Source: Apostichopus japonicus
Lineage: Eukaryota; Echinodermata; Holothuroidea; Aspidochirotida; Stichopodidae
DNA: 64,000 nucleotides
Assembly (NCBI RefSeq): GCF_037975245.1
Contig: NC_092566.1
Coordinates: 7,234,001 to 7,298,000, forward strand
Direction of reading: 5' to 3'
Part shown: positions 462 through 52,229 of the stretch, piece by piece
Position numbering within the stretch: the first letter of the stretch is position 1
Layout: each line of letters starts with the position of its first letter
Notes under the pieces: model-generated
The model's database searches: none
The model's input: only the letters and a program-made list of their open reading frames with translations
What the model was told of the DNA's origin: nothing
Program-made: the position numbers and the translations under genes

Positions 462-13101
<12,640 letters not shown>

Positions 13102-13312: not shown

Positions 13313-14505
13313 AGCAATCAACTGGTTTCATTACCGAAGTTTATGTGAAGTCTTTGGTTGTATACCTGTCAATTCTGTCTTTGATTGTGTGACGTTACTG
13401 TTGACTTTTTCTATTGTAATGAACTTGATGTTCTGAATACGCTGCGGCCTGCGGCTTTACGAGACAAAGGATAAAAGGCGGTGAAGGTGAGGGGAGGGTT
13501 GTACATACTTCCTCAACTTTCAAGGTTTGCGGTGAGAGCAATTGACAGACCAGGCTGTTTGGATATATTAATAAGTGTATTATGATATCGTGACAGTGCA
13601 CATTTTATGTCCGATTGGCATCACTAAAAGCGATATATCACAGGTGGTAGGCTATGCTACACAGAATCATTTCACGTCTGCTTCTACATGCCAGCAAGTG
13701 CTCCTGATTCTATAGAGCAAATTGATTTCATTGAAAAATTCAGTAATCGATGTAGTTCATAAACTTATGTAAAGTCAATTTGGAAACCTTCCAATGTGCG
13801 TTTCACTTGTGGGCTTTACATTCACACGAAGAGTGTCCGAGCGAGATGTTGTAAAAGGAATGAAATCATTAATGACTTCCTCTTCAACATTTCATATATA
13901 CTTCATTGTCTTAGCTCAATTGATTAACAATCCTGTAACTTGACAGTTGCGCACTACCCTTTACATAGGCTATGAGGTCATACATTGAATTTTTTTTTTT
14001 TATATTATCTTAATTTTTATTTTGATGCCTTAAATTTTTCTGAGGGCTCAAAGTTCTCAGAGTTATTCTAAAACAAAATTTCAGTTGTCTTTATAGCGCT
14101 AGGGTATATACCACGCCAGTTGAATAGCCCCAAAATGTCTTTGTTGTAATGTGTGGCTTTATGATATACATATAAGTTTTATAGTTACCACCACAGCATG
14201 TGATTTTAGCGCGTTTATCGCTGGTAACATTATATTGTATGCACGTATAAGCTGTGCTTAATTTAGTCCAATAAGTGATTGTTTGTTTGTCATTTTAAAT
14301 TTTGCTTTGATTGGTTGTTCCTATATTTATACGCTTTTAGTGGTAGGCTTGTAATAGTTTTCACCTTAATTTATATTGCAGCTTGTGTCGAGTTTTCGCG
14401 GTCACGGTAACATTCCAAAGATTGTGCTCAATGTTGACTATAAGGATATATGCTGTGAAATAGCCACACATTTTCACGTGTCTTTTCTTCATTTCGTTCT
14501 TTACT

Positions 14506-28773: not shown

Positions 28774-31700
28774 ATGCAACTGTTACCCATCCTCCTTGCC
28801 GTGTTCATAGCCGGCGTCAGTGCCAATCATGATTCCACAGAGTGTAGTCATAGAAAGCTCGGGCTCATCGAAGGCAACGTCACTCTGGGTTTCATGTTTT
28901 CCTTTTTTGGATCTGGCGACGAAACTTCAACGATTTGTGATGAGACCGTCATACCCAATCCTCAAAACATCCAGCTGCTTGAAGCATTTATATTTGCTAT
29001 TAAGAAAGCAGAAGGAAGAATCCCAGGCATTTCTATAGGTGAGTTTATACATGCAGATGTTGTAAAGGGGAGAGGGGATTATGTAGGAATGCAATATGCC
29101 CCCACCATATCCTCCAACCCCCCACACCAGCTTCACAAATGCTTCACAAATATTTAAATTACAGTTTCAAGTGAAATTACCCAGACTCTCCTTTCTCATC
29201 AAACCTGGTCCGTCCTTCCCGCACACCCCTTTCTTCCCCCCCCTTCATCATCCTTCCTCCCCCCCCTCAATTTTTCGATTTTTGAAGGTGCTCAGATGCC
29301 AAATGCTGGCACTTGTGTAGCTTTTAAAGCACATACACAAGTACTAGTTTTGAAACAGTTTACATCTTTTTTTTTTTTAGTGAAATATATTACGTACCTG
29401 GTAAAAGTTATTAGTTTGTTTCAAAGAGATTTTACAAGGGACGGATTGAGAGCCGTAAGCAATGTTTCTCGTATGCGTAACTGATGCATTATTAGTCTGT
29501 ATGATTTTGGCATTGGCTAGGCCCAATTTATGTTGAATATATTGTTAGGAATGTCGGGATTTTAGATTAAAATAGTGCTGGGCGGGATCCACGATTTTTA
29601 AGATAGTGCTGGGCGGTGCCGCCCAGCGTGGGCACATCCCTGATAAAGGTGTAAAATGCAAATTTTATGGTTAATGAATCTAATTTTTGATGACTGTGTT
29701 GCATACTGATTTCTGGTACTTTTTTATTGTTGCTATAGGTCTTGAAGCATATGACACTTGTTACTCCAGGGCTGCAGCAGTGGATCATTCTGTCACATTT
29801 CTGAAAGACCGCTTGATTAGTCAGGGTGATAGTAATGTCCTCCAAGGCTGTGGAGAAAGAGTGAAGCCAGGTACGGGCATAGTAAACAGAGTTTTCTCAC
29901 TGTACCAGCGTTTTCAGTAAAACTTTTGTGGAATTCTACCAAATATAACTTTTTCAGTTAACAAGTAAATTTTTTTTTTTTTTTTTTTACTCCTTTGACA
30001 TGGCGATCTATATTAGCTACAGGGTTAAGTGCAAGATATAAATATTGTGATCCTGTTTTTTAAAACAAAATAAACGGTCAATTGAAAATAAATCAATCAA
30101 ATAAGCGTTTTAGTTTTCTTCCCCTTTCATTTATATTATTATTTTTTTTTTTATAGTTTGTTTCCATTCACCAATTTCTCTCCAGTATATATGTATATAT
30201 TTATTATATTCAAAATGGGGAAAACATTCTATAGGCATTGCACTTCTTTTCCATGCATTTGTATAGCTTAAATATTGTATCATAAATATTATATCAATTA
30301 ACATGATGAATGTTTTTTTCTTTCTTTGTACCTGTCTCTCTAGATTGTATTGTATATCAAAATATTCGTTTATACTTTGTAAAACATTCATGTACTGTAC
30401 AAAATTGCTGGAAAGAAATTGTTGTCATTGTCATTTAGCCTGAAATTTCTGTGCAAAGGACTCATATTATTTTTTTAGGGGGGGGGGGAGTGACGGTTCC
30501 AATTAATAAAGTAAACTTCAGTAAAATGTTCAATTCTCTTTGCTTGTATATGCAGTTAAAGTATAATGCCAAATGTCCTGAGACAAAATGTCAAGAATTT
30601 AATTTCAATAATTAATTAATAACGTTTCCATCTTTGCCAAAAATTTAAGAAAATTGATTATCATATTTGCTGTTTTATTAAGTCTTTTTTTTTATCTTTG
30701 GTAATTGCATCAGGTTTAATTGGCTCCCATGACGATGGCCTTGGATCAGTTTTAGGTACTTTGTTGTCTAATGCATTTGTTGCAACTACAGGATATGCTG
30801 CCGACCTGCTTACGTTGTCTGACACGTTCGGACTCGATTATGTCACCAGGAGGGTACCATCATATGTAGAAGAAATAAGGGTAGGTGCTACATTCAGATG
30901 TGAAATGAGGTATTATCATGAGCACAAGTTTCTAAACCTGGACTTGTATAATTACGTCAACGTTATAATAATAATAATAATAAACAATTATCAAATATTA
31001 ATTATTAATTAAATATCACATCTAGATTTGACTTTATCAAAAGAAATGAAATGTTTTGAAAATGGAGGCTTATACTCATTTCTATTGATTCTTTCTAGTT
31101 TTACTTTTGCCTCTTGTTGCTCTTGTTTTGTTTTATCTATCTATCTCTCTCTCCACCTCTCTCCCTCTCCACCTCTTGCTCGCTGAAGGTGATGGCAGAC
31201 TTTATGAATACCGTAAATATGAGCTATGTCTATCTGGTCTCTACCGATAGCGAAGAATCGACATTGCGGTCCAATCTCTTCCTGGACACTGCAGCTAAGA
31301 CCGGAATGTGCGTCTCACAGCATTACCGACTGAACGATTCGGTTAGCGTCCTCGATGAAATTTACAGGAGTCTCTTCTCCAGTACGGTGAAGACAGTGGT
31401 CGTATTAACCGAGGCTGGTTTCTTCAGGGACCTTGCGATGAAAGCTGCGGACCACCAAGTATCGGATCTACAATTCATCGTCACCTTCGATCTATTTCTG
31501 AGTGTCCCTGTCCGCACCTTCCCTTCAAATATAGCGACAGTTTATAGTGCTGTACCAGATAGCTTGGACACATCGCAAGGAGACGACGACGAATTTGATA
31601 GCTACTTCAAAAATTTGAACCTGACAGCTCACAGCCAGGAAGCCAACCCTTGGTTTCGACATTTTTGGGAGAGCAGTTATGATTGCAGCTTCGACGGGAG

Positions 31701-33021
31701 CGAGGGTTCCATGTGCGACCAATCAGATATCACCGAGCATATGACGTCGTACCAGAGGAACCCCTTCGTGGCACCAGTGATCGATTCCGTGGATGCCCAC
31801 GTCCAGGCTCTGAAGGATGTGTTAGAATGCGACGAAGCTACCTGCGACGAATTGCCTGCATTCACGCAAGAAACATACTTGGCCAGGCTGAAGCAAGTGG
31901 ATTTCGCCAGTCAAGTCGGAAACAATGGAAGAGTCGCTTTCAAACCCAGCGGAGACCCAGAATATACTCGGTTTCAGGTGATGGCATTGAACAATACTGA
32001 TGGACAGAAATACTTGGTGAGTTAAAAAGCCACTTCTTTTGCAAGTTAGATCTCAAACTGTTAAACAATATGTTATATTTCCAAACCTATGCACACTAGT
32101 TTCTATATAGTGTAATCGGTGAACTATAGCTGCAAAGGCTAACATGAACTATCTCTGCTTCTTTTGCTGGAAAAGGTGCAGTTGTCTCATAATTTGCCAG
32201 ACATGTTTTTCACAATAAACAACTTTTTCTTCTAATTCTTACGCTATATTTAAAAAAATAAAATAATACTGTTAGCAAACTGGCTTATCCACTAGTCTGG
32301 AGCCTGTGTAAGAGAATGTGTAAAAGTAAGTTGGATCCTCAGTGTTTTTTCAAGCGATATTAATGCTTGAGTTTTTCCTGTCCCTCGAAAGCCCTGTCCA
32401 ACAGCCACAAGATATCCCTTTTTTTTTGGTGAAAATGTTCTCAAACTCTGTTAATTTCACCTTACAAAACACCTAACTAAACATTTGCGCCAAAAAAAAA
32501 CTAACACAAAAGAGAAATGTAAACATGTGCAAAGAAGATGTTTAAAAAATGATCACACCTTCTTATAAACATTTTCGTTTTGCACAATTTAAATCTCTTG
32601 TTTGTTTGGTATGGCCAATTGAGGCTGCCCTTAATTACCTACACATGGTAAGGATCTTTCAAGTGCAGTTACCAGAGAAACCAGATCAACAAAAATTGCT
32701 TTACCACTCTGCATGCTTTGGATCTGACGTGTAACAAACTTAAAAGCAGGCAAAGCTCATGCATGTGGTCACAAAATGCATTGCGGGTATAACTTTATTA
32801 TATATAACTTCAAACAAAAACAGCTATGTCGTTGGTTGTGTCCGTGAAATGGATGGTTGTCTAGTTTTTTGTTTTTTTTGTTTTTGGCTTTTCAGGTCAC
32901 AGAATGGTCCAATGGCGTATTTGGTGCATTCACAGATTTTCCAATCCAAGCCTCCCAATGTGAAGAAGTTTGCTTGGATCCTCAGTGTTTTCTTTTGAGG
33001 CTGAAGGAAGGAGAAGCTGTG
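28774..33021 (+). other. Signal peptide and Venus-flytrap domain 1
   Basis: Five exons. After the signal peptide come IEGNVTLGFMFSFFG (first strand), LLEAFIFAIKKAEG (first helix), GLEAYDTCYSRAAA (matching the mGluR strand with D.C), a second lobe YVYLVSTDSEES, NPWFRHFWESSYDC, a final helix and VTEWSNGVFGAF. Ligand residues are degraded: GSHDDG replaces the Ser-rich loop, GYAADL lacks the Thr, and VPSY replaces VPSD. The domain ends with CEEVCLDPQC, a stub of a cysteine-rich linker. Likely structural or modulatory. Confidence 0.8.
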
Positions 33022-36000
33022 GTGAGTAGAGATTGCAAAAACCAGGTCTTCCTGTCATGGTTTGTGTAATTCCTCTATGAATCTGTGCAATAAACAAACC
33101 ATCATTAATTAGCCTACTTTTAAAGCAGCATTTTGCGTTGGGTCACTTTTTTCCACCTTTTTAACATGTGCATCGATTTTTTTACATGTATCAATCATAA
33201 AACAGCAAACTAAGATACCATCCAAGTTTCACCCTGCCAAGAGCGTTAATTAGCGAGTAATTAACGATTTATATCGATAACGAGTAAAAGTGTCCTCAAC
33301 AAAGTTTTCATATCTCCAAATCCACTAGTTTGAATTCCACCAATCAGTGAATAGTATCTTTATTCATGAGCATTTTGCGTTTGGTCGCCGTTTTCTACTT
33401 TTTTGACATGTCCATCGAGTTTCTTACATACATCAAATCACAAAACAGCAAATTAAGATATTAGCCAAGTTTTTCCCTGCCAAAAACGTTAATTGGCGAG
33501 TATTGCACATACAAAATTAAATCGCATTCAGTTCCCAAACCCACTAGTTTGAATTCAACCAATCAGAGATGCAGGTTTAGTTATGAGCCGTTGCTAAAAA
33601 TAGATTCAAGACTTTGCGTTGGGAGTTGTTATGCAACTCCCTGGTACAACTGCCATATAGACTGTACACAAATCAAGCATTGTGTTATATTACGTATCTG
33701 TCAATGACGTTCGTAGTGTTGAAATATTCATATTATGGGCGAGGTTTATCGGGTTCCCAACGGAAAATATCTTGGAGAACAACAAAGTTGAAAGTTGCAT
33801 TTTTTCGACTTTTATGCCACCATTTGAAGTAAAATATAAATAGATAAGCTAGTTATGTATGTCGTTATGGCATAGTGGAGTCAGTGAGGTTGAGAAATAT
33901 CATAGAAAAGGACGCAAAATGCTGCTTTAAAAATCATTCCAGGTTTTTACATGACGGTGATCAAGCTTGCCTACAGGAAAAAACAGTCCTCCTCAAGTTC
34001 ACTCGAGCGTTACTGATTTGATACTTGATAGCATAAAACTACTAAGTACTTTCTTTGTGTGCACAGAAGAAATGGCAGAGTCTGTCTTCCGGCTAGCCAG
34101 GCCTATATTGCTGATAGTTTTTCTATGCTAATTTTAAAGACATGCACAACAAAGAGAGCTAAAGCTGGAATTCGATTATTACAAGTCAGTTAATTAGGAA
34201 CTCTGGACTAAAGGGAGAAGGAGAATGATGCGGTCCATCTTGGTTTGAAACAGCGTCTAAAATTATGGAAGAAAATAGAGGAAAAATGGATTTTTGGTGA
34301 GATATGCAAGACTTCAAGAACAACTTCACCTGTGACTGATTTGAGCTCCTCTTATTGGTGAAATTTTATTTTATACTCTTGGAGGCACTAGGTAGATGTA
34401 TAGATCTACATAGATATACAAAGATGTATACATCCTCCCAGTAACTCCAAGAATATAAAAGAAAATTGATCTACGTAGATCTATGTAGATCTATAAATCT
34501 CTATACTCGTACATGTTATAATGGGTTTGTATGAATATAAAGTTCCAAACCACATTCGTATTTTATCCTGAGCATTCTTGCTACCTTACAAGTTTCTTTC
34601 ATTTCACTCTATTAGCTTCTCCTTCAGAATGATTTGTCCGACATCATTAGCAATGGAATTATGTTCTTTGGTATGTTTGAACAGGGAACTCCCTTAATAT
34701 CCTGTATAAATATGTACATTATATCTATACTGTTGGCGATTTATTATTACACTTCTATGGCAAACCTAAGCTTCCAATTTTCCTCTTGCGTAGGCATACG
34801 TTGAGGGCGATGTAATCCTCGCTGGGTTTTTCCCCGTCAACGAATGGAATGAAGAGATATCGCAGTGCGGTGACCTCAGTGAGAGTGGCGCCCTCTACGT
34901 GGAAGCCATGCTGTACGCCATCGAAGCCATTAATAACGACACCGACCTCCTACCTGGCATAACCCTCGGAATGGACGGTTTCAACACCTGCAACTTTCCA
35001 CAGAGGGCGGCAGACATCACCCTCGATCTATTACAGAGAGGGTCGTTCGACTTGGGCCATTCTGCGACCCGTCTATCCGCTGACGGAACACGGCTGGAGC
35101 ACTTCTTCGGGATCGTCGGTCCCAGAGAATTGGACGTGGTCGCTGTTGTCAACAGTCTCGTCAGCAGCAACAAGGTCCCTATGATAGGTTATGATGTGGA
35201 CGACCCGTCTGTAAATACCTTCTCATACCCTAACTTTGCACGTATCCTTCCATCCTCCATCAGCTACATCCATCCTCTCTTTCGATACATGAGCGAACAG
35301 AAAATTTTTTACTTCCAATTACTCTACTTAGATGATGGATCACCAGGACTCAGGACAACCCTCAGTTACTTTGGTGCTGGAAGTTGGGTAAGTCCTATAG
35401 CCATTTTTTTTTTTTTTTTTTTTGGGGGGGGGGGGGGCTTTAGGCAAGTATGGCTACAATATTTGATCTGAGAATCATCAAGTACATTGTAGCTTTTGAA
35501 AGTGTTCTGAGTCTGAAAATATAAGTAGGCCTACCCCAAGTCACCCATTTTAATTCCCTGCCAAGTCACCCATTTTAATTCCCTGGGGTGGGTTACCTGC
35601 CTGCCCATTTTCCTGTTAGTGTCCTATTAGGAGTATCATCACTACACTAGAGAGGCTGGGAGTAAGTGCTATTTTAGCTACTTTTACTTTTTGAGATATT
35701 GTGTGTACAATGCTTTCAGACTTTGACCATATGCTGACCTCAAATGACCTTTGACCAATACCAACAACAATCCTAAACCACTTCTATCTAACCTACATAC
35801 CAAATACGAAATGTACCCTGTTATCCTTTAGAAGCCTGATACACACGTCATAACTAAAAAGTGAGGGATTTGTCATTCTTTACATTAAATGAATGTTATT
35901 TCATTCAAGTGTTTCTTTGTTGATATTTGACGCATGTTGTGGTATGTTCTCTTTGGCCCAAACAGAAAATACAACATGTATTGTTCTTACCTATTTCATC

Positions 36001-37821
36001 ATTTGTGACAAAGGAGCAGATTAATTCTGTTTTGTGTATATTTTGTATATCATCGTACAAAGTTTGGCAGAGAGCAGATAAATTCAGAGTGGGTTCTTTC
36101 TTTCTTGATCTTCACCACCCTGTTATCTAGACCAATGTCTGCCTTGCACAGAGCATTAAAATTCCTCAGACCGATAGCGATGAGGAGTGGAATGAATTGT
36201 TTGATGACTTGACCAAGAAACCAGACGCTAGAGCCGTATTCATACACGCCCCCTCCGATGTTATCCTCAAAGTCTTAACCCGAATGGAAAGCAGAACATT
36301 TCCAGAGCCGTACTTGATTTTAGCCGGGCCGTCTTGGAAACTAACCAATGAAGATATCAGCGGCCTAAGCATAACTAGAGGTAAGTAATTGAGGGAAGGC
36401 TACACCATTACAATATTCCCTGCCTATAGCAAATTCCCGGCCTCCAGAGTCCCTTGTTTTTTGGACAAAAAACGGGAGATTGTATATCTACCTGAGTTGG
36501 TATCATGCTAGCCCTACTGAATGCTCCCCTGCACAAATTCATGATTTAACACATGCACAGTGTACTATTTCAGTGGTCAAGCAAAACTTGTGCTTACACA
36601 GGAAAGTAGTGGTAGCCATTAGAGCACTTGCGTTTACAATCATATGGTGGCTGGTCAGATATTTAGGTGTGCTCAAGGATGAATCCTAATGGCAGTACTT
36701 GGGGTAGTTCAAGCTATTAAGTAACAAATTATTAATGCTCGATTGATTTTGAGGAGTACTGTTTTTTTCTATAGGCAGGCTCGAACCATCATGGTAACGC
36801 TGGTGATGGTCCCAGCGAGATATATCACCAGCACAGCTAACGAGTCTCCCACTTTCCCACTGTGCTGTCAGTTGAAGCAATTATTAGAAGTATTCATAAA
36901 AACTAAAGCTTTGAAATCAGCAGTGTTACTCTCTTATAGACATAATAAATAAAAAATAGACATATCAGTATGGGTGAGACCTAACAAAAACTGGACAATC
37001 CTGTCTAAAAGCCTTCTATACAAACATAGGGACGGATATGGTCAAACATTTTTCATAAAAGTTTGACTGAATACAGAGATGGAATGGTCAAGTATCTTCC
37101 CTACAAAATCTTGAAACCGAACAGTGGAGTCTGTATGTACTGGGAATGGAAAGATAATGCCCACTGTTCAGTCTTGCTTGGAGAAGTCGTTTCCTGGAGA
37201 CCCTCTGTAAATTATCTTGCATGATTCAAGATCACTGATGAAAAATATTGTGAGAGATGCAGTGAACTGCTTTCTGAATTCGGACATGAGGCAGTATCAC
37301 TTGATTTAATTTCTACCATATTTCGGGGAAGGGAGTGGGGGAGGTGTAACACAGATACCCTCTATCATGCCCTACTTATGAGCTGTATTATAGCCTTCTT
37401 TTAGTCCATTTTAGAATCAGTTTTTTTTTTTATTGCTACTCCTCTTTGCAACTGGAATCCAAATATGCTTTATATAATTATTTTGTTTTCTTTGGTACGA
37501 ACAGGTGCTTTAATACTCCAGTCACCAGATCGAAATTACAAAAATTTCGAGGAGCACTTGCAAAACAGGGTACAATTCCCAAACAACACTCGTAATCCAT
37601 GGTTTAATGACTACTGGACGGAGACATTTAAGTGCAATATAGCCTCCTCTGGATCTAACACATGCACTGGTATGTTTTTATTAGCTTTACTTTATCATCA
37701 AACAGTTGGCGAGTTCCAAGCAAGTTCAAACTGTATATATATATATATATTTGAAAATCGTAATGAGTTGGAAAATCAAGAACAGTGAAAAAACTTCCAG
37801 CCTCCACCGGGATTTGAACCT

Positions 37822-37862
<41 letters not shown>

Positions 37863-40800: not shown

Positions 40801-43800
40801 CAGGCCGTAAGTCTGTGTTTTGACTCTAAGGATGAGTAACATCAGCAATGAATTAGAGCGAAGTGAGCGTGTGGATGATGGTCGGAGCTGCAACAAGTTA
40901 GTGAGGTAGCTTGGTCCTACATTGTGCATACATTTGAACACCATCAGAAGTAGTTTGTAGTTGATTCGTTCACGTATCGGGAGCCAGTGGAGTTCGATCA
41001 TATAAATTCCTTATAAATATAAATTCCAGATATCATACATGGTATATAGGCCTTTGATATGAAACTTGGTGGAGTGGTTTCTAGGATTCCTGAAGTTACA
41101 GACAGTACTTACTACCTCTTTGCTCCTAACCCCCCATTCGTTAACCTTTTTGAGTGTTGATGAGTTTTCTCAGCAGGGTATCTTAACTTTGGTTTTTACA
41201 GGGTTCTTTGAGCTGTCAGAGCCATCGTCAGACAGCCTGCTTCAATGTTCAGATCAATTGGTCCTAGAGAATATCCCGTTAGTCGAGGCATTTCTGTTTG
41301 CCATAGATGACATCAATCTACGAGAGGAGATCCTCCCGCAACTGAAACTCTCCGGGATTGCTTTTGATTCGTGCGGAAGTCCAGAAAGAGTCTTGAAGGA
41401 AGTAGGAAATCTAGTTACTGGCACGGTGGATTACCGTACCGCCTATGCTATCAACCAAATCAGCATTTCCGGCGTGGTAGGTGGCGCGACCAGCGACACC
41501 ACGGACGCCCTAAGTTCTGTCCTCACTGCTCGAGGTATCAACCAGATCAGTTACGCTGCCACCGCTACCCAGTTCAGCGACGGCTCCAAGTATCCTTTCT
41601 TCCTAAGGACGGTACCGTCCGATCTGGACCAAGCCGTGGTCTTTGTCGATGTCCTCTCCGAATTCGGTTGGAGGTACGTCTCTGTGGTATTCTCGGATAA
41701 TATCTACGGTAACGATTTGACCAGTGTGTTTCAGGAGAGTATGAAGGGGTCTGGTATATGCGTGGCTATGACTCTGGGAATCGACAGAACTTTCAATGAG
41801 AGCAGGTTTGACAACCTAGTCGCCACTCTTCAGAGTAACCCCAGCAGCAGAGTGGTCGTTCTCTTCACATCCGACGTGGACACACGATCGGTCCTGGAGG
41901 CAGCCGAACGTCGAAACGTCACGGACATCCAGTGGGTAGGCTCTGACACCTGGGGAAGTAGCAACTTCATCATTGCAAATGCCGGGAGGACGGCCCGTGG
42001 GGCCATCACTGTGCGTTTCAGGAGCGAGCCGATCATACCATTCTGGAACTATACCACAGGACTGTCCCCATACTCAAATTTTAGAAATCCTTGGTTTAGG
42101 CGCTTCTTCCAGGATTACAAAGAGTGCGATTTGTATGGACAGCCAATTGTATATGGCGTGTACTGTGGCTTCTTTGATAGCCTTCCTAGCTCATCTGTGG
42201 ATAATCCCCAGGTTACTAGTGTCATCAATGCAGTTTATGCATTTGCACACGGTTTGGACAAGGCTTTGAAGGAACTCTGTCCAAATGTAACCAACCACCA
42301 CATCTGCAGGGATCTTGAGAACCAGCCACAAGCATTGCATGAGATTCTTCAAAGTGTGAGTTTTCCGAGCGCCCAAGATCCAGAAACCCCTTTTAAATTT
42401 GACGAGAATGGTGATGCCATTGGAAAATACGACATCTTAAATTTGCAGCCAAAAAATGACTTATTGGCATATGGAAAGGTTTGTCCAGTAATTTTTTTTT
42501 CATTTTTTATTTCTTCATATGATGGGATATTCGGGAGGCAGACAATAAATTTTATATTTGACAAAAAAAAACGCTGCAAAGTTAGTTTAAAACCCCCATC
42601 TTCAATATCTTGTCCCTAACTTGAGATCATATGATTGATTGAATTAAGCCGATTTTGATCAGCTTTAATAATGTTAATCTCCAGAGAGTGAATCACAGTT
42701 GGTGGTCTGTGATGTCACCAGGGCATTGTATTCTTCTAAAGCTTCTTCTTGTAGATTTATGATTATCCGAAAAAAACCTGATACATTGAGCATGTTTTCT
42801 TGAATAGCTGTCAATATTCTTTGCTATTTTGCTCAAAATTTATTTTCTCTGTTCCTGTGTTTAATAATTACCCAGTCAGTTGTTAGCTGTTGTTCATTGT
42901 TCTGTGCCGTTAAAAAATATCTCATCAAATTGTTACTTTACTTTAGAAGCAATTTTTTCCTCTGTGGACAAGCAATGAAGTGTTATGGACAAGAATAAAG
43001 ACATATTCAGGTGGTATGCCATGATTGCATCATTCAATCTTGCCATAGATGCATATTTACAAAATATCACAATAACAAGTCAAAATCATATCTTTTACAA
43101 TACAAATGCTATGAGTTTTCAACTAAGAATGCAGAAAAATGTTGAGCAGTTTTGTTATGGCATGCACCTTCATGCTCTCTGGAAAATCCTTTTTAATTTG
43201 ACTATGTGAATATTAGGGACAAGATGATGTAATATCAATATCATTCAGGTTTTTTTTTCGGGGGGGGGGGGACTGGGGGCAGGAAGGGGGACAAGGTGAG
43301 GACATTTAATTTAACAGCATAAGATAGTTCAACATTTAATTGCAGATCTAAGTTTCCTCCGTAGAATATTAATATTCTCACAGTTCCAATGTGCTACCAA
43401 GGCCGCCTGCAACATGGAGGCCATTGGCTCCCCCCCCCCCACCCCGCCCTTCAATTGAGTTCCTAGTACAGTGGGCAAAAAGTACCCAACATTTACGGTG
43501 GCAAGAAGTTCCTTTCCTCCAAAGACTTGAACTGAAAGTTTATGAGGTTAACCACAAGATATGAGTACTTGGCTCCAGAAAGGCCAGAAACTGTCCCACA
43601 AAAGTGCTTAATTGCAAGAGCTTCCGGACCCACACCTGCACCCCACACTGCCCGAGCGTGCTGCTCAGAAAGGACTACACAAGAGTCTGCCAACCGAACA
43701 TTTCGCCCCTCCCACTGCCCTTTTCAAATGCAGGTGTCCCTGTGTGCTACAATGGGGTCATTATAAGAGGTCTCCAGGATTAACTTCATTTTCAAACCAT

Positions 43801-46800
43801 GACTGGGAAAAAATGTAGCACTCACGTCTCGTTCCTATCTACAATATAATTGTTTGAAACCGGTGGTTCAAACAGTTTCAAAATGCATCCCAGAAAGTGT
43901 TGTAGTTTAAGCTAAGGTTAAATCAGCTTTTTGTGACATAATCAACTTTAAAGTTAGTGGCAGACGAGAATGTCTGCAAAATTAATTGCCAAATTAAAAT
44001 TCTTTTTTAGATATTTCCAGTAGGGCTTGTACAGACGAATATGTACAAAAGGATTGTTTAAGATATTTCCAGTCGGGCTTGTACATACGAAATAATGTGC
44101 CCTCAATTCCAATGTCGAAGGGTGAAGGTGAAATTTTTTTCCTAAAAAATTTCATAAAAATAAAAGGAGTGCTTCTTTGGATTATGGTGTAATCAAAATG
44201 ACTCTTCTATGTTGTTCCTCTCTGCACCTTTTATGTACAGATTGGTTCTTGGGATAGTGGCAGCCTGACCCTTAACTTGGAGGAAGCATCCCTCGCAAGA
44301 GAAGGGATGGACACCAGCAGCGATTGCTTGGGTAGATGTTCCGAATGTGCGCCCCCAGAGGTAGCGTTTGTATCTTTGGACGGTGTCATCCAGATAGCCG
44401 GTCTAGCCGAGGTCCACAATGCTGGCGACCATGTCGGCGACTGCTCCTCGTTGAAAAATTCGGGCGTCTTAGACGTGGAGGCGTTCATGTTCGCCATCGA
44501 CGTGATTAACGCAGACGGTTCGATCTTACCAGGGTTACAACTGGGAGCAAAGATATTCGACAGTTGTCAAAGCGGTGTGAGAAGTATCAGGGAGATTGCG
44601 TCCTTTTACGGTGGCACCGGGGTGTTCTCTAACAGAACGAATTGGCAGTTTAACGGTGGACTCATCGGTGGAGCCACACCGTCGGTCACAGAGCTGAGTT
44701 ACCATGTTGCTCAGCAGTATAAGCAACCCCACGTTAGTATTAATGTAGTGTCAGTGTATCATTTTTTCGATCCACAAGATGTACTTATTCGTGAAAAACT
44801 TAAGACATTTTTTACGGGAGATTTTTCTCTTGTGGGTTCGGTGGAAAGGAAACTGAAACTTAAAGCTCTCTCATCTGAAAATCCGCCCTTAAGTAAGACT
44901 GCCGTTCATTTTTTCGCCACTGGCCACTTCTTCACCTTTCAAGGTTACAAACTTGTCTGGAACATTAGCCTGTGAATTATGCATTCAATTCGCCAAGCCT
45001 AGCAAAGGAAACGAGCGCGGAAAAGTGTGCTCCTCAGCTCAAATTTCCCCCGACCTACCGTGAGAGCCTATGCAAATGTCAGAGGCAGGTAAACTGTTCT
45101 GGCAGTGGTATTATAGGGTGCATTTTCAACTGTCAATATACAAAGGACCAGCAGAGAATTAAAAACAATAGAAGAAAATGTTGATGTTTCATCATAATTT
45201 GAATGATGTAGACCCAGAATACACTATTATAAACAGACCACAGAAAAATTAGACAACAGATTTTGTGGACCATACATTCTTCCATAGCGATACAGTCAGT
45301 GGCGGAGCTAGGGGTATTGGTCAGGGGGGCGACAATGGTCTGTAGGGGCGCTTTCGACACTATCTTAGCGGAGCCCCACCACAGGTCGGCGCGGAGCGTA
45401 CAGAAATGTTTTGAGTAAAGATTCTCCCTAGATTGCCGGAAGTGACCCTTTCCGGGCCTTGCTAATTTGCAGATAAACGAAGAATAAATAGGTTTCATCG
45501 CCAACAAAATGTGACAAATGTCAACAGGTAGATAGAGCCCAATAAAAAAGTCAATAATCGCGAATAAGTAAAAAGTGGTAAAAAGCTGAAAAGGGCGCCA
45601 GCAGTCCATTTGAGTCCATCGGGGGGGGGGGACTGGATACAGTCGACTGTTGTAAAAGTTGCAAGTGTGGCATCGGCCAGCTGGTACAATCTATTGGCTT
45701 GATAGCTTAGGTCTCTCATCCAGAAGTAATATGATAAAAATATTGTTTTATTTTATGATCTGGTTATTGTTTTTCTTTGATTCTCCCTTATCTTTCAGGT
45801 TTCTTACAGTTTTAGCTCCAATCTTGAGGATGCTGATTATCTCATCAAGACCACGCCTACCATAGACTCAGTCGTCCAGGCAGTCCTAGATGTACTCAAG
45901 TATTTTAACTGGTCAGCTGTTTCAGTGGTGGCAGATTCTGGGGATGAATCACAAATGCTCCGTGAGTGAATTATATATAGCTGTTTCTCAAGAATCATAA
46001 CAGTACAAATCACAGAAATTACCACAAAAAAAAGTATTTATCTATAATAATTGTAACAAGGCTAATTAGTAAGGTAGCAAAAACAGTGATAATAGCAAAT
46101 ACCTATAAACAACAACAGAGAAACAACAATATCAACAAATAACAGTACTTAACAAAGTGAACAGCCTGCAGTAACGATAACTGCAAGTACTATTTTAATT
46201 GATATTATCCAAACTATCTGAATCTCAGGAACAAAAGAAATATGCATAATTTGTAATGATCGTGGGTTGTGAAATTATCAAGTCGACATCTTGAAACTAT
46301 CAAAGTTTGATTTTGCTCTGAGACTGAAAGGCGTCCATTGCTTTTTCGCTGCTTATTTTCACTTCTCTATTCTTTCTTTCATTCTTGGTTATGTAGTGTA
46401 CAATGCTTTCCTCGAATCGTCGAGCGACTTATGTTTGGATACCACATCGACATTTACCACCGACAGTCTCAGCCAAGTCATTTCCTCCGTTGGCGATACC
46501 AGAGTGGTGGTGATGTTTGCATCAGCTCGAGTCATAAACTTGATTACCAAGACAGCTCAGGCCCCTCATAAGACATTTGTTTTCGCTGGTGTCGCCACGG
46601 CCGATGCCATCCAACCTTCGGAAGCTATCGTCGGCTCGTTAGTCTTGTCGTTCTCTCAGAGAGCTTCAAACTTTGAACGTTTCCTGCAGGACTTAAGTCC
46701 CACGAAGGCATCGGACAACCCTTGGCGACAGGAGTACCTCAGCCACCAGCTTCAGTGCAATGCTGGAGAAGTCACAGAGTACAGCCAAGACTGCATGGAC

Positions 46801-49800
46801 TCGGACCGTCTGGGCAGCGTCAGTGGAGAGGACGTCGTGAATGCCAGACGGATCATGGATGGTGTGTTTGCCCTCGCAACCAGCATCCATAGCATTCAGC
46901 AGGAGAAATGTGGCTCGGGTATCAGAGGACTCTGTCCAGATTTCCTGGTAACAGATGTCGAAGACTTCCGGCTCGCCGCAGTGGATGTGAGCCTCACCAA
47001 TGAGAACGGAGAACAAGTAATATTCCAAAATGGACAGCAACTCCTTACCATTTCTGTCTGGAACATCCAGTCACCTTCAGGGAATAGTCCAGTCAAGGTA
47101 AGTTCATTATGTTCACGGATAATTTTCTTTAATTCTTTCGGGGGTTGGGGGCAAGAGTGAATGTGAATCGGGCAGGCGGAGGATGGGGGGGGAAGGGATT
47201 TTAATGTACCAGAAAAGAGCTATGGGCATGTGTACCATTAACATTTGAAAATGCTCCCTTTAATACCATCAGTGCTATAACAGTTTATGTGCCTCAAGCA
47301 TTATATTTAGGCTCTCGCAGTAGATCAGGGGAAATTTGAGCTGCAAAAGTGACTTTTCCATGCTGGTTCCCTTTGCTTAGCTTGGCGAAGTGATTACGTA
47401 ACACACAGCCTCATGTTCCAGACCAATAACCTTGAAAAGTGGCCATTGGCGATAAATTGAACGACAGTCTTACTAAAGGGTGGATTTTCAAATGACAGGT
47501 TTTTTAGATTTTGTACAAATTTCTGCTATTTTGGGGAAACAATATGGAAAAGCATAATATGCAGGACGTTTGCAACTTAACCACCATGTAGACTTGACTG
47601 CCAAAGAGGGATTTAATCTGGTCAGGCACAAACTTGATGGAAGTCTTCGTGGGATATATGACTTTTGTTTAAAAGGGGTGCGGGGGGAGGGGGGCAGGCA
47701 CCAAGTAACCTCCAAACTTCCATTGAGCAGTGGATCCTTTTTTTGCATTGCACCTCTATTTGAATGGGTTTGGACAAAATCTGCACTTATTAACTGCAAT
47801 TTTGTTTGACATTCCTTAACAAAAGTCATCTGCTTATTATTTACCTTTGTCAGACAAAAGGGCCCTGTTTCAAGAACAAAAGGGCCCTGTTTCAAGAACG
47901 AAAGGGCCATATTAATTACAAAAAAATTGAAACTGGGTTCTTTCCATTATAAATAGAAATGGGCACCTGTAATCGAAATAAGGGCATATTGTGAGTGCCC
48001 CAGCACAGTTTTTCCCTAGACATATGCATTGACACACAAACCTGGCTACTAAATGGTTGCAAGACTCTTGTTTTTTGTCCAGGAACATATAGTTTGTAGT
48101 GTATCCATGGGACCGTGCATTAATAACGTGAATAGCATGAATATGAATATCGTGCACTCAATTAGTGGTTTAGTGAATAATGGTAAACTGTCGAGAGACT
48201 TTAGAGGCAGTATTTTTATCGTTACCTTTTTATATACAGGCGCCTATCCAGGGGGGTGGCATTGGGGGTGCGTGCCCCCGGAGTAAGAAAATGAGGAGAG
48301 AAAAAAAAGAGAGAAGAAAAAGGGGAAAAATGAGGGGGAAAAAAGAGGGGAGGAAGGAGAGGAAGGAAGGATAAAGAAAAAGAAGAAAGAGAGAAAAAGG
48401 AGAAAAAGAGGGAGTAGAAGAAAATCGCCGAGACACCGGGAAGAGAAAGAGGAACTGTGACATAACTACAGCGCTGATCCCCTATTATATACACAGGGTA
48501 GCCAGTGACGGATTGAGGATTTCGGAAGGGGCGTGCACCACCCAACCCTACTCCTTACACCAACAACTCCATTTTTGACGTTTCCATTTCTCCTCTCTTA
48601 CTAATGTATTAATATATATACTAAATATAGTCTATCATAATGAGTGTGTAAATATATATAAATATATGTGACAGTGTCTGTTAACAGTGTTTCCATATTC
48701 TTAGTGTTACAGTACCTTCATAACCTTTAGCCTATTTCTATATGTAAATTCTGCCCTCTTTATTGCTTTGTCTTCTCATATACTCATTTTTAAACTTCAT
48801 TACCTATCTATTCAAGAGTGATTTTGTATCCGAGAATATCAAGAAATGTAAGGACCTTCACAGTCAGGGTTATTTTTTTATCCTTATATCAAGGTTCCGT
48901 GAAAACTGCAATTAGAAGAAATCAAACCACCAAAAAATTCTATGCCTCCTCTTTGTAGCTAATTGGCACGTTCACATATATATCTATATATATTTACAAA
49001 TATTTAAATACAAATATATATAAATATATTTTTTATATATATTTATATATATTTTCTTACTCATTTATAGATAGCAGACTTGGATGGTATGCCTCCATCT
49101 TTGATAGGCATGCCTCAATTCTTTGATGAAGATGGTAACCTCGGGATGATCAAATCACCTTGCCCAGCAAAAAGCACTACGACCAATCCGACCAGTGACC
49201 AAACAACCGATGCTAGCCAGCAGAGCCTTGCAACAGACTCAACCGATGCTAGCCAGCAGAGCCTTGCAACAGACTCAACCGATGCTGGCCAGCAGAGCCT
49301 TGCGGCAGTCTCAACCGATGCTGGCCAGCAGAGCCTTGCGACAGACTCAACCGATGCTGACCATCAGAGCCCTGCGACAGACTCAGCCGGTGCTGGCCAG
49401 CAGAGCCTTGCGACAGACTCAACTGATGCTGGCCATCAGAGCCCTGCGACAGACTCAGCCGGTGCTGGCCAGCAGAGCCTTGCGACAGACTCAACCGATG
49501 CTGGCCAGCAGAGCCAGAAGCCAGACTCAGCCGGTGCTGGCCAGCAGAGCCAGAAGCAAGAGCCAGAAGATCCATGGTTTATTCTCGCTCTGATCCTTAG
49601 TGGTTTGGGTGTCCTCTTTACTCTCTTGGTGTTAGGGGTCTACGTCTTAAACTCGGACACCAACTACGCTCAGTTTCAATCGTCGTTCCTCGTCTACACT
49701 CTCCTGGTTTCGTTGCTGCTGATGTTCTCGCAGACCATCTTATTCCGTCTGGAAGTCCACCCGGCAGTCTGCGCCCTAAGGAGGATCGTGCCGGGGACAT

Positions 49801-52229
49801 CCTTCTCCCTGGCTTTCGTCTGCATCTTCCTCATGTCAGGGAGGTACTTCAGGATCCTGAAGAAGGAACAGAGAATCTCGGGCCTAGGAGCAAAGTATAT
49901 CGACAACAGGAGCCAAATGATTGCATTTCTGTGCGTCTTCCCGATGGAGTGCATCATCCTCTTACAGTGGCTACTCTACGAACCCCCCTCCGTCGACGAA
50001 TCGCCCGAAGATGGAGAAAATCGGTGGTTACATTGCGTATTCATCGACAGAAACTTCCCAATCTCCTTCATTTTCATTTACTTGCTCATGATTGGCAGCA
50101 CTGCTGTATCGACGTTGGCATTACGACGGAGCAGGGTCTACTTTACATTCGAGCTCAGTAGCACCATCATCTGCTGCATCTGTAAGTAGTATACTAAGGA
50201 TTTTTTACCCTTCTTTTTATCTCTTTTGTTTTTGATTTTCATTTAGAGAGATCCCTCCCATGTGATGCACACGAGGATAAAAACAAAATGTGAGAGAACT
50301 GCAAATGGTCAAGTTTAACAGGGAAAAAAAAGGGGAAAAAAAGAGAAAAAGGCTGTAAATATGAACATTTCATTGCTGTGTGTGTGCTCAGTCTCCTTAT
50401 TGCAGCAAATTAATACTTTGCTGTAATACTTTATAAACAGAATTTCTCTGGGTAAACTCAGTGTTACTGCACGCAGAGTATAGTTAATGTGGGAGTCACA
50501 TATCTGAAAGCCAAATACAAAACTCAAATGATCTTCATAGCTGACAGATCGATTGCTGTATGGGTTTTACACATCCAATTTTAACCCTCCATTGACATGT
50601 GGTTATATGCTTGCTTTAAATTATTTCTTGACCCGGTCCAGTGGAGAAGCTAGGCGTATTGGTCAGGGTGGCAAGAATGGTCTGTAGGGGCACTTTCGAC
50701 ACTATCTAAGCGGAGGGCCACCGCAGGTTGCTGCGGAGTTTACAGAAAATGTTTGAGTAAAGATACTCCCTAGATGGCTGGAAATCACCCTTGCTAATTT
50801 GCAGATGATGTGACAAATTTCAATAGGTAGATGAGAGCCCAATTAAAAAGTCAATAATCGCGAATAAGTAAAAAGTGGTAAAGCTGAAAAGGGCACCAGC
50901 AGTCCATTTGAGCCCGTCAGAGGACGCATCCGCCCCCCTGACTGACCCGGTCAAGTCCTCATGTCAAGATCACAACCAAGGCATATCATATTTCAAGTAC
51001 GGACAAATCAAATCCAACTGAAAAAAAAACAAGCTTTGAACCTTCTTTTTTTTCTTTTTTCTTCGATGTGTCTTTTTCTTTTATGAAAGCAAATTTTTGT
51101 TCCTCTAGAAAATTGAATACATTAATAATTATTTGTTCACGACTCTATACAGTGTCCGTCATTCTGGGTGTAGCCTGGACCATCTGCGGGTTTTTGCTGA
51201 CTGCCCGCGTCTACGTGCTGGTGACGGGTTTCCTTGGGATCCTCCAAGGGTACATCATACTCCTCACCATCTTACCAATAATCGTGAGAGGGCTTTTCAA
51301 AGATGAAGAACCATTCGATGCAACGGGCTTCACAGATGCGAGTAGCGTCGCAGACGGGACTGACGGTAAGATCATCGACAGACTTTGTAAAAAGAATGGC
51401 TCCATTCCAGTGACATGGAGGGCATTGTGTTCAAGTGGTTAAGGAAGTGGACTGGTCATCTAAGGATTACAGGTTCGAGCCCTGGCCAGATCATTGTGTT
51501 ATAGTATGTCCTTGAGCAAGGCACTTTACCTCGATTGCCTCTCTTCACCCAGGTGTATAAATGGGGACTTGCGAGGTAACTTGTAAATATAGTTGCGTGC
51601 GCCGGTTGTGGCTGCACCCTATGGGGAGTACCTCGGGGGACACGTGGTTGTGGTGCACTGTGGTGCCCCAAGAGAGATTGATTTAATGGGAACACTTTGG
51701 TGTTACAAGTCACCAATGACCAAGGCTAAGTTGTCAAAGCGTTACGATCTCAATATACTAGCAGCGCTATATTAGTATCTAATATGTATGTATAATGGTC
51801 TGTAGGGGCGGAGAGAGCCCATACATCTGCAATATCCCCCCAAAATGGGTTCTCACCACCACCAACCAAAAAACGGTCTGAAATTTTGGCTTGTGTTTAA
51901 GCAGTAGCCATCTTCAAAAAATTGTGTCTTTCTGCCCCCTCTCAGCAGCCACCACCTTGAAACTTTTATCTAAATTGCATCATTGCTACATATCTTGATC
52001 AACTCTATTCCCAATTGTCTTAGAATTTCATCTACAAAAGTTTGTTCAAATCTCCATGGCAAGTTTTACTACATGTTCGGTCCTTTTCCCTATTTCGGTC
52101 GCAGGTTTTACAAATCCAGTTTCTGTTTATGAGTCACCATACGACAGCCCTCCGCTCGACAAATGGAAACAGGAGAAAAAGATGCAGGAATTTGCAGTCG
52201 GTGGCAAAGAAGATGAGAGCCCAATGTAA
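28774..52229 (+). CDS. Class C GPCR with four tandem Venus-flytrap domains (mGluR-like)
   Basis: Seventeen exons: 28774-29038, 29739-29870, 30714-30880, 31189-32016, 32896-33021, 34794-35387, 36131-36380, 37505-37669, 38737-39023, 39392-39596, 41202-42478, 44241-44732, 45799-45961, 46397-47097, 49071-50181, 51153-51365, 52105-52229 (TAA 52227-52229). They total 7101 nt, 2366 residues, and every junction keeps phase. Only one signal peptide (start MQLLPILLAVFIAGVSA) and one stop are present, with no internal start or end between domains. Order: VFT1 (~20-500), VFT2 (~505-1000), VFT3 (~1005-1455), VFT4 (~1470-1910), repeat stalk (1930-2049), seven helices (~2053-2290), ~70-residue tail. The VFTs carry mGluR-type signatures (NPWF, FLRTVPSD, VGSDTW, FDENGD..YDI, IGSW). 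It should bind small molecules outside the cell and signal through G proteins; the ligand is unknown. The full cysteine-rich domain of mGluRs is absent. Transcript support is needed to prove all exons form one mRNA. Confidence 0.85.
33022..34793 (+). other. Intron between VFT1 and VFT2
   Basis: A 1.77-kb phase-0 intron. Holds the TTAA-flanked element 33124-33926 and part of dispersed repeat A. The self-complementary 14-mer gatctacgtagatc lies near 34468. Confidence 0.7.
33124..33926. mobile_element. TTAA-flanked element with 15-bp perfect TIRs (803 bp)
   Basis: Left end AGCAGCATTTTGCGT, right end ACGCAAAATGCTGCT: perfect 15-bp inverted repeats. TTAA flanks both sides (33120-33123, 33927-33930), as for piggyBac-type insertions. 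Inside, a ~220-bp block (about 33126-33350) is repeated in tandem form at about 33367-33570 (shared words: cattttgcgtt, aaaacagcaaa, ccactagtttgaatt, accaatcag). Non-coding. Confidence 0.78.
36489..36798 (-). repeat. Dispersed repeat A, inverted copy
   Basis: Reverse complement of 22687-22974 over nearly its full length. Intronic, between VFT2 exons. Confidence 0.68.
37823..37860. repeat. (TA)n microsatellite
   Basis: A TA run in an intron of VFT2. The adjacent 37755-37815 is the inverse of 4585-4645, which also abuts TA. Confidence 0.8.
37929..38318. mobile_element. hAT-like element (390 bp) with 8-bp TSD
   Basis: Left end CGGGGTTTTCCAATG, right end TTGGACAATCCTG, with an inner GGGCCGGACTGTGGCCCGCG typical of this hAT group. 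The 8-bp direct repeat gtttaatc is present on both sides (37921-37928, 38319-38326). Intronic and non-coding. Confidence 0.8.
39605..39812. repeat. (ATTC)n/(GATT)n tetranucleotide array
   Basis: About 200 bp of cattcattc and gattgatt units starting 9 bp after the donor of the last VFT2 exon. Confidence 0.9.
39818..40088 (+). repeat. Intronic repeat B, copy 1
   Basis: Shares a long diverged match with 43799-44100: gtagcac.cacgtctcgttccta-like start, acagtttcaaaa, gtggcagacgagaatgtc, agatatttccagt. Same orientation, each in the intron that follows a VFT (VFT2 and VFT3). Confidence 0.7.
40142..40290 (-). mobile_element. LINE 3' end with microsatellite tail
   Basis: On the minus strand a stretch (aaagcacctta, ctatataaattaatt) ends in (attc)n then (gtcc)n tetranucleotides, the usual look of a truncated non-LTR 3' end. 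Only the tail remains. Confidence 0.45.
40580..41001 (-). pseudogene. 5'-truncated non-LTR retrotransposon (CR1/L2/Rex-type) reverse transcriptase C-terminus
   Basis: Minus-strand translation begins LHWLPIRERINYKLLLMVFK and continues with GPSYLTNLL, YGLRKFASSAPCLWILLPEH and FKSALK, the conserved C-terminal tail of LINE ORF2 proteins. It is followed by ggcgctatataaaaac and a (TTA)n tail on the same strand. The rest of the element is absent, so it is a dead fragment in the intron between VFT2 and VFT3. Confidence 0.82.
41202..42478 (+). other. Venus-flytrap domain 3 (single large exon), best-conserved binding site
   Basis: One 1277-nt exon (phase 1 in, phase 0 out) codes nearly the entire domain. 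Marks: PLVEAFLFAIDDIN, GIAFDSCGSP, SGVVGGATSDTTDALSSVL, QISYAATATQFSDG, PFFLRTVPSDLDQA, WRYVSVVFSDNIYGND, QWVGSDTWGSSNF, NPWFRRFFQDYKEC, FKFDENGDAIGKYDI. Aligned by eye to rat mGluR1, the residues holding the amino-acid backbone are kept: Ser165 (S of GATSD), Thr188 (T of YAATA), Asp208 (VPSD), Tyr236 (IYG), Asp318 (GSDTW). Arg323 is not obviously kept, so the side-chain preference may differ from glutamate. The closing strand IGSWDSG is in the next exon. Confidence 0.88.
42479..44240 (+). other. Intron between VFT3 and VFT4
   Basis: A phase-0 intron of 1.76 kb with poly-G/C runs (43259, 43431) and intronic repeat B copy 2 (43799-44100). No exon recognised. Confidence 0.7.
43799..44100 (+). 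repeat. Intronic repeat B, copy 2
   Basis: Diverged same-strand copy of 39818-40088; the segment agatatttccagt..ggcttgtaca occurs twice here (about 44008 and 44060). Confidence 0.68.
44873..45072 (+). repeat. Intronic repeat C, copy 1
   Basis: Reverse complement of 47308-47494 (shared: gaaaatcc.ccc, agtaagact, ggccact, cgccaagc, gctcaaatttcccc). Lies in the intron upstream of exon 45799. Confidence 0.75.
45297..45635. mobile_element. hAT-like MITE family M, copy 1, with 8-bp TSD
   Basis: Starts CAGTGGCGGAGCTAGGGG, ends in a poly-G run plus GACTG. The 8-bp repeat gatacagt flanks it exactly (45289-45296, 45636-45643). Related to 50639-50944 and 57233-57607. Intronic, non-coding. Confidence 0.82.
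47308..47494 (-). repeat. Intronic repeat C, inverted copy
   Basis: Inverse of 44873-45072; the pair encloses the last two VFT4 exons. Confidence 0.75.
48288..48425 (+). repeat. Polypurine (G/A) tract
   Basis: About 138 bp of almost only A and G in the intron between VFT4 and the stalk exon. Able in principle to form triplex structure. Confidence 0.8.
49071..50181 (+). other. Stalk repeats and helices TM1 to start of TM6
   Basis: A 1111-nt exon, phase 0 in, phase 1 out. It starts with IADLDG (closing strand of VFT4), GMPQFFDEDGNLG and a single-Cys KSPCPAKSTTT. Then ten 12-residue units and seven-helix sequence: WFILALILSGLGVLFTLLVL (TM1), FLVYTLLVSLLLMFS (TM2), VCALRRIV..SFSLAFVCIF (TM3), MIAFLCVFPMECIILLQWLL (TM4), WLHCVF..FIFIYLLMIGS (TM5), ELSSTIICCI (TM6 start). 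Cys at the head of TM3 and in the loop before TM5 match the conserved class C disulfide. QWLLYEPPSV resembles the class C TM4/loop motif WL...PP. Confidence 0.88.
49206..49565 (+). repeat. Coding minisatellite, 10 x 36 bp (12-residue units)
   Basis: Units of the form TDAGQQSLATDS, with variants SP for SL, AGAG for TDAG, and QKPDS in the last two. Rich in Thr, Ser, Asp and Gln, so an extended, possibly O-glycosylated stalk joining VFT4 to TM1. Because 36 is divisible by 3 and no stop occurs, other frames are also open here; those are shadows. Confidence 0.95.
50639..50944. mobile_element. hAT-like MITE family M, copy 2, with 8-bp TSD
   Basis: Starts CAGTGGAGAAGCTAGGCG and ends CCCCCCTGACTG. 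The 8-bp repeat acccggtc flanks it (50631-50638, 50945-50952). Intronic, between TM exons. Confidence 0.85.
51153..51365 (+). other. TM6 remainder, TM7 and proximal tail exon
   Basis: Phase 1-1 exon of 213 nt (acceptor ctctatacag, donor gtaaga). Encodes LSVILGVAWTICGFLL (TM6), YVLVTGFLGILQGYIILL (TM7), ILPIIVRGLF and an acidic tail. The class C PKxY motif after TM7 is not present (LPIIVRG instead). Confidence 0.85.
51419..51775 (+). mobile_element. tRNA-derived SINE (family 1), copy 2
   Basis: Head tgttcaagtgg (A-box-like) and caggttcgagccc (B box), body gcactttacctcgattgcct and cacccaggtgtataaatggg, end agcgctatattag. Begins only ~54 bp after the TM7 exon. Same strand as copy 1 at 8030. Confidence 0.78.
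52105..52229 (+). other. C-terminal tail exon of the receptor
   Basis: Acceptor ttcggtcgcag, phase 1. About 40 residues with VYESPYDSPPLDKW and a charged end ESPM before TAA. Short for a class C receptor; no class I PDZ motif. Confidence 0.82.

Follow-up and report, generated by a model that had tools for sequence, protein, structure and literature searches.

Here, we analysed a window of 64,000 nucleotides from Apostichopus japonicus (C6:7234001-7298000; by "the window" we mean this whole stretch), which holds a gene whose product is a class C G protein-coupled receptor (GPCR) with four Venus-flytrap (VFT) domains. By using a splice-aware model with GT-AG introns and an unbroken phase, the gene (28774-52229, plus strand) was put together from 17 exons encoding 2366 residues, with the start codon at 28774, the stop codon at 52227-52229 and the exon phase series 0,1,1,0,0,0,0,1,1,0,1,0,0,1,0,1,1. 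This model was steered by fixing or rewarding its start, its stop and its anchor exons and by penalising two stretches. It returned the very figures of a first-pass annotation of this DNA, which had joined 17 exons into 2366 residues without a phase error. The parts of the gene are as follows:

28774..29038 (+): exon 1, start codon, signal-like stretch (by eye), first strand and start of VFT1 (model, VFT HMM, paralog)
29739..29870 (+): exon 2, VFT1, bearing the loop cysteine restricted to VFT1 among the echinoderm proteins (model, paralog)
30714..30880 (+): exon 3, VFT1 (model, paralog exon)
31189..32016 (+): exon 4, remainder of VFT1; whole VFT1 84 bits to ANF_receptor
32896..33021 (+): exon 5, linker 1 with three cysteines (model)
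34794..35387 (+): exon 6, N-terminal part of VFT2; VFT2 110.7 bits
36131..36380 (+): exon 7, VFT2 (model)
37505..37669 (+): exon 8, VFT2 (model)
38737..39023 (+): exon 9, C-terminal part of VFT2 (model, VFT HMM)
39392..39596 (+): exon 10, three-cysteine linker 2, then SGDVWIGG as the first strand of VFT3
41202..42478 (+): exon 11, almost the whole of VFT3; 203 bits; mGlu3 E 3e-69
44241..44732 (+): exon 12, three-cysteine linker 3, followed by the N-terminal portion of VFT4; VFT4 97.7 bits
45799..45961 (+): exon 13, VFT4 (model, paralog, VFT HMM)
46397..47097 (+): exon 14, C-terminal part of VFT4 (model, VFT HMM)
49071..50181 (+): exon 15, one-cysteine linker 4, the mucin-like stalk and (helices judged by eye) TM1-TM5 with the first part of TM6; 7tm_3 95.7 bits
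49204..49551 (+): tandem repeat, 36 bp x 9.7 copies, coding the 12-residue TDAGQQSLATDS-type stalk; not in the paralog
51153..51365 (+): exon 16, last part of the 7TM and first part of the tail (model, paralog)
52105..52229 (+): exon 17, cytoplasmic tail and stop codon (model, paralog)

In looser runs, 18 exons and 2402 residues came out at two of the penalty settings and 26 exons at the loosest one. The 18-exon version adds, among others, a 28-base exon in DNA that is repeat-like by eye. The exon 48240-48267 was dropped, as the phase-0 acceptor at 49071 keeps the frame without it and agrees with the paralog described below. A start of exon 11 at 41085 was rejected as well, since a good phase-1 acceptor is present at 41202 and also in the paralog (local position 13737). 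We chose acceptor 41202 because it restores the first strand of VFT3, checked by hand at the end of exon 10, and because both copies have the phase-1 acceptor.

Upstream of this gene, at 634-10093 of the window (plus strand), frames with CUB, SRCR (three frames scanned) and a zona pellucida C-terminal domain follow one another; by its layout we take this neighbour to be DMBT1-like. Within intron 10, an open frame without a Pfam match lies on the minus strand (40567-41010), and by its motif it presumably resembles the end of a LINE-type reverse transcriptase.

The domain content was assessed with Pfam on five consecutive hand-cut pieces of the joined protein. ANF_receptor (PF01094) was matched in each of the first four pieces, with 84, 110.7, 203.2 and 97.7 bits for VFT1 to VFT4 (cut-off 25.4), and 7tm_3 (PF00003) in the fifth, with 95.7 bits (cut-off 33.5); the four VFTs and one seven-helix domain read in the first-pass annotation were thus recovered above cut-off. 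When the whole 671.6-Mb genome was scanned for 7tm_3, the window held one match, at 49566-50177. NCD3G was absent from the protein at E 0.01, while the same library detected it in all three of the other class C receptors scanned from the same genome as a control. The N-terminus carries a signal-like hydrophobic stretch, judged by eye. The mutual identity of VFT1-VFT4 is just 19-24%, which rules out their recent duplication, and the intron sites within the four VFTs all differ (by eye). Every VFT unit is, however, flanked by phase-0 introns (after exons 4, 9, 11 and 14), and this pattern fits an array that grew as a 0-0 module was duplicated.

Six-frame scans of the genome revealed a second locus with an identical order of matches (C6:5159149-5141078). 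The same modelling turned it into a paralog lying 2.1 Mb from the window gene on the opposite strand (C6:5161386-5138827), with 17 exons, 2225 residues and a phase series identical to that of the window gene. The two proteins share 774 of 2162 aligned residues (35.8%), and identity per domain, from VFT1 to VFT4, is 29.9, 35.2, 50.3 and 25.2%, with VFT3 the highest. Our own VFT HMM finds four VFTs in each protein. The mucin-like stalk is missing from the paralog, and its VFT4 lacks the cysteine found in lobe 2 of the other VFTs of the pair.

Relatives in other animals were sought by a whole-length search in which candidates were confined to 0.55-1.75x the query length, among ~8000 sequences; this favours long proteins and shows presence only. 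The window protein retrieved a 'Metabotropic glutamate receptor 2' of Holothuria leucospilota (2322 aa, 45% identity over 99%), LOC110973163 of Acanthaster planci (2318 aa, 31% over 97%) and LOC135483289 of the nemertean Lineus longissimus (2821 aa, 22% over 73%). With the Lineus protein as the query, nine further proteins were obtained: those of Haliotis asinina, Pecten maximus, Solemya velum, Sinanodonta woodiana, Argopecten irradians and Limulus polyphemus, and three lgn-marked ones. An alignment-based homolog search at E 1e-20 returned zero matches and missed the known members too, so it is uninformative on absence. Pfam finds one 7tm_3 in each of the 12 homologs and NCD3G in none of them. 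ANF_receptor is matched in four stretches in Holothuria, Acanthaster and Limulus (the first VFT of Limulus is incomplete, hence at least four there) and in five stretches in the nemertean, the five molluscs and the three lgn proteins, in agreement with our own HMM. At least four VFTs and one 7tm_3 per chain are therefore found in the window protein, in the paralog and in all 12 proteins returned, two of which are flagged LOW QUALITY by their source. In the databases the family goes under the names 'uncharacterized', 'hypothetical' or 'metabotropic glutamate receptor 2'.

The lgn-marked proteins come from contigs of 8823-9298 bases and comprise 2733-2885 residues, with five VFTs and the 7TM in one frame. 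We take them to be lophotrochozoan because they are placed inside those groups in the VFT tree. The contigs barely exceed their own coding sequences in length; if this size means that they are transcripts, five VFTs and a 7TM stand on one mRNA. Together with the intact paralog and the full-length homologs annotated in two echinoderms, these one-frame contigs uphold the single-chain reading of the first-pass annotation. Thus, it is supported, at the level of sequence, that the window gene encodes a single chain of four VFTs and one 7TM, and its reading frame and layout are shown at that level. The search of other echinoderms that the annotation had proposed gave Holothuria and Acanthaster, with four VFTs each.

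Two loci on another contig, C4:1575038-1643374 (plus strand) and C4:14195373-14326899 (minus strand), carry ANF_receptor arrays without a 7tm_3 match. In the 20 kb inspected of the first, the frames closely copy or are related to one another and are natriuretic-peptide-receptor-like by eye. This second type, with its many ANF_receptor frames and no 7tm_3 match, was rejected as part of the multi-VFT family, since it looks like natriuretic-peptide-receptor type genes.

In order to trace the history of the array, a tree of 67 VFTs was built. The echinoderm VFTs fall into one clade per position (E1-E4, support 100/99-100 each), and so do the lophotrochozoan ones (L2-L5 at 99-100/97-99, L1 at 90/82). 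These positional clades imply that the four-VFT array is older than the starfish/sea cucumber split and the five-VFT array older than the mollusc/nemertean split. The window gene and the Holothuria gene pair in all four VFTs, with the paralog next to the pair (well supported for VFT1, VFT2 and VFT4, weakly for VFT3), which dates the gene duplication before the split of that pair. E1, L1 and the first VFT of Limulus cluster together (91/92, not starred in the tree). L2, L3 and L4 are united in a clade (100/100), so some units of the lophotrochozoan array were added later; VFT2 and VFT3 of Limulus pair as well (96/93). A constraint that unites the 16 echinoderm VFTs carries a cost of 20 log units (p-AU 0.044), and one that unites the 45 lophotrochozoan VFTs a cost of 25 (p 0.024), the constrained groups having been chosen after earlier trees were known. 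Independent amplification in each phylum is hence disfavoured, for the echinoderms at the margin only, and the tree favours, without proving it, an array that predates the protostome/deuterostome split. The mollusc proteins split in two, with Haliotis, Pecten and lgn9 on one side and Solemya, Sinanodonta, Argopecten and lgn11 on the other. It seems that molluscs have two old multi-VFT paralogs, the two scallops standing on opposite sides.

The 7TM domains were compared with nine other class C 7TMs, eight from the same genome and a human mGlu2 fragment. Nine class C loci of the genome, out of 58 7tm_3 matches, were used; locus L005 (in-frame stops) and L015 (two exons) were excluded. All 14 multi-VFT proteins form a clade (96/99) with one single-VFT gene of the genome (L022 on contig C15, about 25520618-25526103), which places the window gene in this family. 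When the C15 gene is left out, the multi-VFT 7TMs form no clade in the best tree, and their forced monophyly is not rejected (p 0.251); in an earlier tree with fewer rows the nemertean 7TM stood apart from the echinoderm ones. The C15 gene, read as separate exons, has one VFT, and no further VFT match better than E 0.08 was found in the 30 kb upstream. NCD3G is unmatched in its 7TM exon, and an acceptor-like phase-0 site lies directly before a VG-type linker. Thus, this gene may resemble the single-VFT ancestor of the multi-VFT receptors. Going by these sequences, the family is present in both deuterostomes and protostomes, and the window gene seems to belong to an old, apparently undescribed multi-VFT type of class C receptor that is widespread in invertebrates.

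The linkers between the VFTs are largely uniform in their cysteines. With cysteines counted from 8 residues ahead of the end of the VFT match, 50 of the 51 inter-VFT linkers contain exactly three (echinoderm 12/12, lophotrochozoan 36/36, Limulus 2/3, the third having two). In the last linker, leading to the 7TM, Limulus and all but one of the nine lophotrochozoans have three cysteines, and the remaining lophotrochozoan has five. Each of the four echinoderm proteins has a single cysteine there, and in three of them the linker continues into a Ser/Thr-rich stalk. In mGluRs, a lobe-2 cysteine forms a bond with the cysteine-rich domain. Its counterpart is present in 63/65 VFTs (15/16 echinoderm, 45/45 lophotrochozoan, 3/4 Limulus). 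Since both this cysteine and the three-cysteine linkers are kept, each VFT unit seems to retain a rigid VFT-linker coupling. The inter-subunit cysteine of mGluRs, in turn, sits in a loop of the VFT. Among the 13 proteins from echinoderms and lophotrochozoans, every VFT1 has a loop cysteine, and so has VFT5 in all nine that have this domain. None is present in the 39 E2-E4 and L2-L4 domains (E2-E4 alone, 0/12) or in VFT2-4 of Limulus, whose VFT1 lacks the loop region. The stalk that precedes TM1 seems to change quickly in evolution: the window protein has a repeat rich in Ser, Thr and Gln, Holothuria and Acanthaster have Thr-rich stalks of a different sequence, and the paralog has none.

We next consider which of the VFTs may bind a ligand. 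The five mGlu3 residues that contact the amino acid backbone, which we take to be S151, T174, D194, Y222 and D301, were scored with Ser/Thr, Tyr/Phe and Asp/Glu treated as equal. All five are found in VFT3 of the four echinoderm proteins; the other 12 echinoderm VFTs have 0-2 of 5. In the same VFT3s, the equivalents of the mGlu3 arginines R64 and R68 are replaced in all four proteins in two alignments, while an mGluR of the same genome retains both. The column of mGlu3 K389 reads Arg in one alignment and Gly in the other for the paralog, and the mGluR of the same genome has no Lys there in either. Among lophotrochozoans the contact signature is found in VFT4, in VFT5 of five of nine proteins, and sporadically in VFT1-3, and in some molluscs several VFTs per chain have four or five of the five residues. 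No VFT of Limulus exceeds 2/5. As the position of the signature differs in lophotrochozoans and the signature is absent from Limulus, VFT3 is not the general binding site of the family. A comparable pattern was described for class IV mGluRs, in which Arg78 and Lys409 (mGluR1 numbers) are lost and another amino acid ligand is predicted, according to the available part of that paper (PMC6307864). The same argument, from loss of contacts to a ligand other than glutamate, is made with reference to the fly DmXR in the available part of another (PMC9138782).

We thus favour, at a probability of roughly 55%, one receptor in which four VFT-linker units are followed by a mucin-like stalk and then by a class C 7TM, which would be dimeric and whose VFT3 would bind an amino acid other than glutamate. 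In the putative dimer, the distal VFT1s would be joined via the loop cysteine. VFT3 is the candidate orthosteric site, predicted to hold the backbone of such an amino acid or of a similar small molecule, and its closure would be passed via VFT4 and the stalk down to the 7TM. VFT1, VFT2 and VFT4 may serve as dimerising, spacing or allosteric modules. Expression of the chain and its coupling to a G protein are predicted along with these steps.

The same four-VFT receptor might instead bind different ligands at several of its VFTs and work as a coincidence or multi-input sensor, as the first-pass annotation had suggested. We find this rather unlikely. Its premise holds in part: the four VFTs are kept in four proteins, in clades that correspond one to one and predate the separation of starfish and sea cucumbers, and the molluscs with 4-5 of 5 contacts in several VFTs of one chain also point that way. 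The low contact scores (0-2 of 5) of echinoderm VFT1, VFT2 and VFT4, which leave the contact residues of these animals in VFT3 only, speak against it, however weakly, as other residues could bind other ligands.

It is also conceivable, but improbable, that the locus gives shorter products, i.e., separate receptors, secreted VFT arrays or chains in which VFT units are skipped in frame. The unit boundaries, symmetric in phase (0-0) here and in the paralog, fit such skipping. A single start with a signal-like stretch, a single 7TM match and the homologs annotated as one chain in two other echinoderms nevertheless do not favour separate genes, and the three lgn contigs, if they are transcripts, suggest one spliced mRNA.

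Still less probable is a non-signalling protein, whose ectodomain would serve adhesion, ligand capture or as a decoy and whose 7TM would be merely an anchor. With 95.7 bits to 7tm_3, the 7TM is fairly diverged next to the 236 and 210 bits of two NCD3G-bearing receptors of this genome, but the third such receptor, with 84 bits, scores below it. The PENFNEAK-type motif ahead of TM6 is missing in the window copy (by eye); on the other hand, the cysteines of TM3 and ECL2 are found in all 14 aligned proteins, the helices are recognisable by eye within the aligned pieces, and the 7TM is conserved across phyla. The chance that neighbouring genes were wrongly joined, or a domain wrongly repeated, in assembly or annotation, a risk raised in the first-pass annotation, is negligible, because the paralog has the same 17 exons with identical phases, the same layout occurs in other genomes, the VFTs are only 19-24% identical within the chain and they form one-to-one clades.

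The preferred reading, a single receptor with VFT3 as its candidate binding site, can be compared with known systems. The group II mGluRs, mGlu2/mGlu3, are alike at the level of parts: VFT3 aligns over its full length to mGlu3 (E 3e-69), the 7TM matches mGlu2 best (E 7e-15), and VFT3 keeps the backbone contacts and the lobe-2 cysteine. However, the window receptor has four VFTs and not one, lacks NCD3G and has lost the side-chain arginines of VFT3, and the multi-VFT 7TMs fall, together with the C15 gene, outside the mGluR-type group (96/99). Class IV mGluRs, found in insects and other bilaterians except vertebrates, likewise keep the backbone contacts and lose the side-chain arginine (Arg78, taken as mGlu3 R68), but as far as the available text describes them they are mGluRs well conserved overall, a comparison made by description (PMC6307864). 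GABA-B receptors also combine a VFT and a 7TM without the nine-cysteine domain, whereas the window receptor has four VFTs and three-cysteine linkers; GABA-B entries are absent among the 56 PDB matches of its 7TM. The C15 gene shares the 7TM clade and the lack of an NCD3G match in the 7TM exon, but has one VFT where the multi-VFT receptors have at least four. In the sources as far as available, Venus kinase receptors and the bacterial sensor kinase BvgS also couple VFTs to a membrane signalling protein, in BvgS even in tandem; their output is a kinase, unlike the 7TM here.

A 2025 survey of metazoan class C layouts gives, in its available part, ANF with NCD3G, ANF alone, and Cache with EGF (PMC12716839). 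Starfish chemosensory papers mention mGluRs and, in the parts available, leave a multi-VFT layout unmentioned (PMC6267866, PMC9759900). Among the titles and abstracts listed from the open-access literature, a collection with most subscription journals and bioRxiv outside it, we found none on a GPCR with several VFTs per chain. The remark of the first-pass annotation that it knew of no described receptor of this layout stands within those listings; the layout itself is not unique to this gene, being shared by a whole family.

Further back in time, we tentatively propose, as slightly short of an even chance, that the bilaterian ancestor had a GPCR class with tandem VFTs joined by three-cysteine mini-linkers, now with four VFTs in echinoderms, at least four in the horseshoe crab and five in molluscs and nemerteans. 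The ligand-competent VFT would have moved between lineages, and the chain would either integrate several inputs or propagate one binding event along its column of VFTs.

Models of class C activation assume a single VFT in each chain and two in the dimer, coupled in mGluR-type receptors via the nine-cysteine domain. If our reading is true, a dimer with 8-10 VFTs and no nine-cysteine domain would provide a test of whether closure can be relayed along stacked VFTs, of whether extra VFTs are sensors or scaffolds, and of the mode of dimerising. As such receptors occur in both deuterostomes and protostomes, a whole receptor class seems to have been overlooked for long, perhaps because genes are named after the single domain that matches best.
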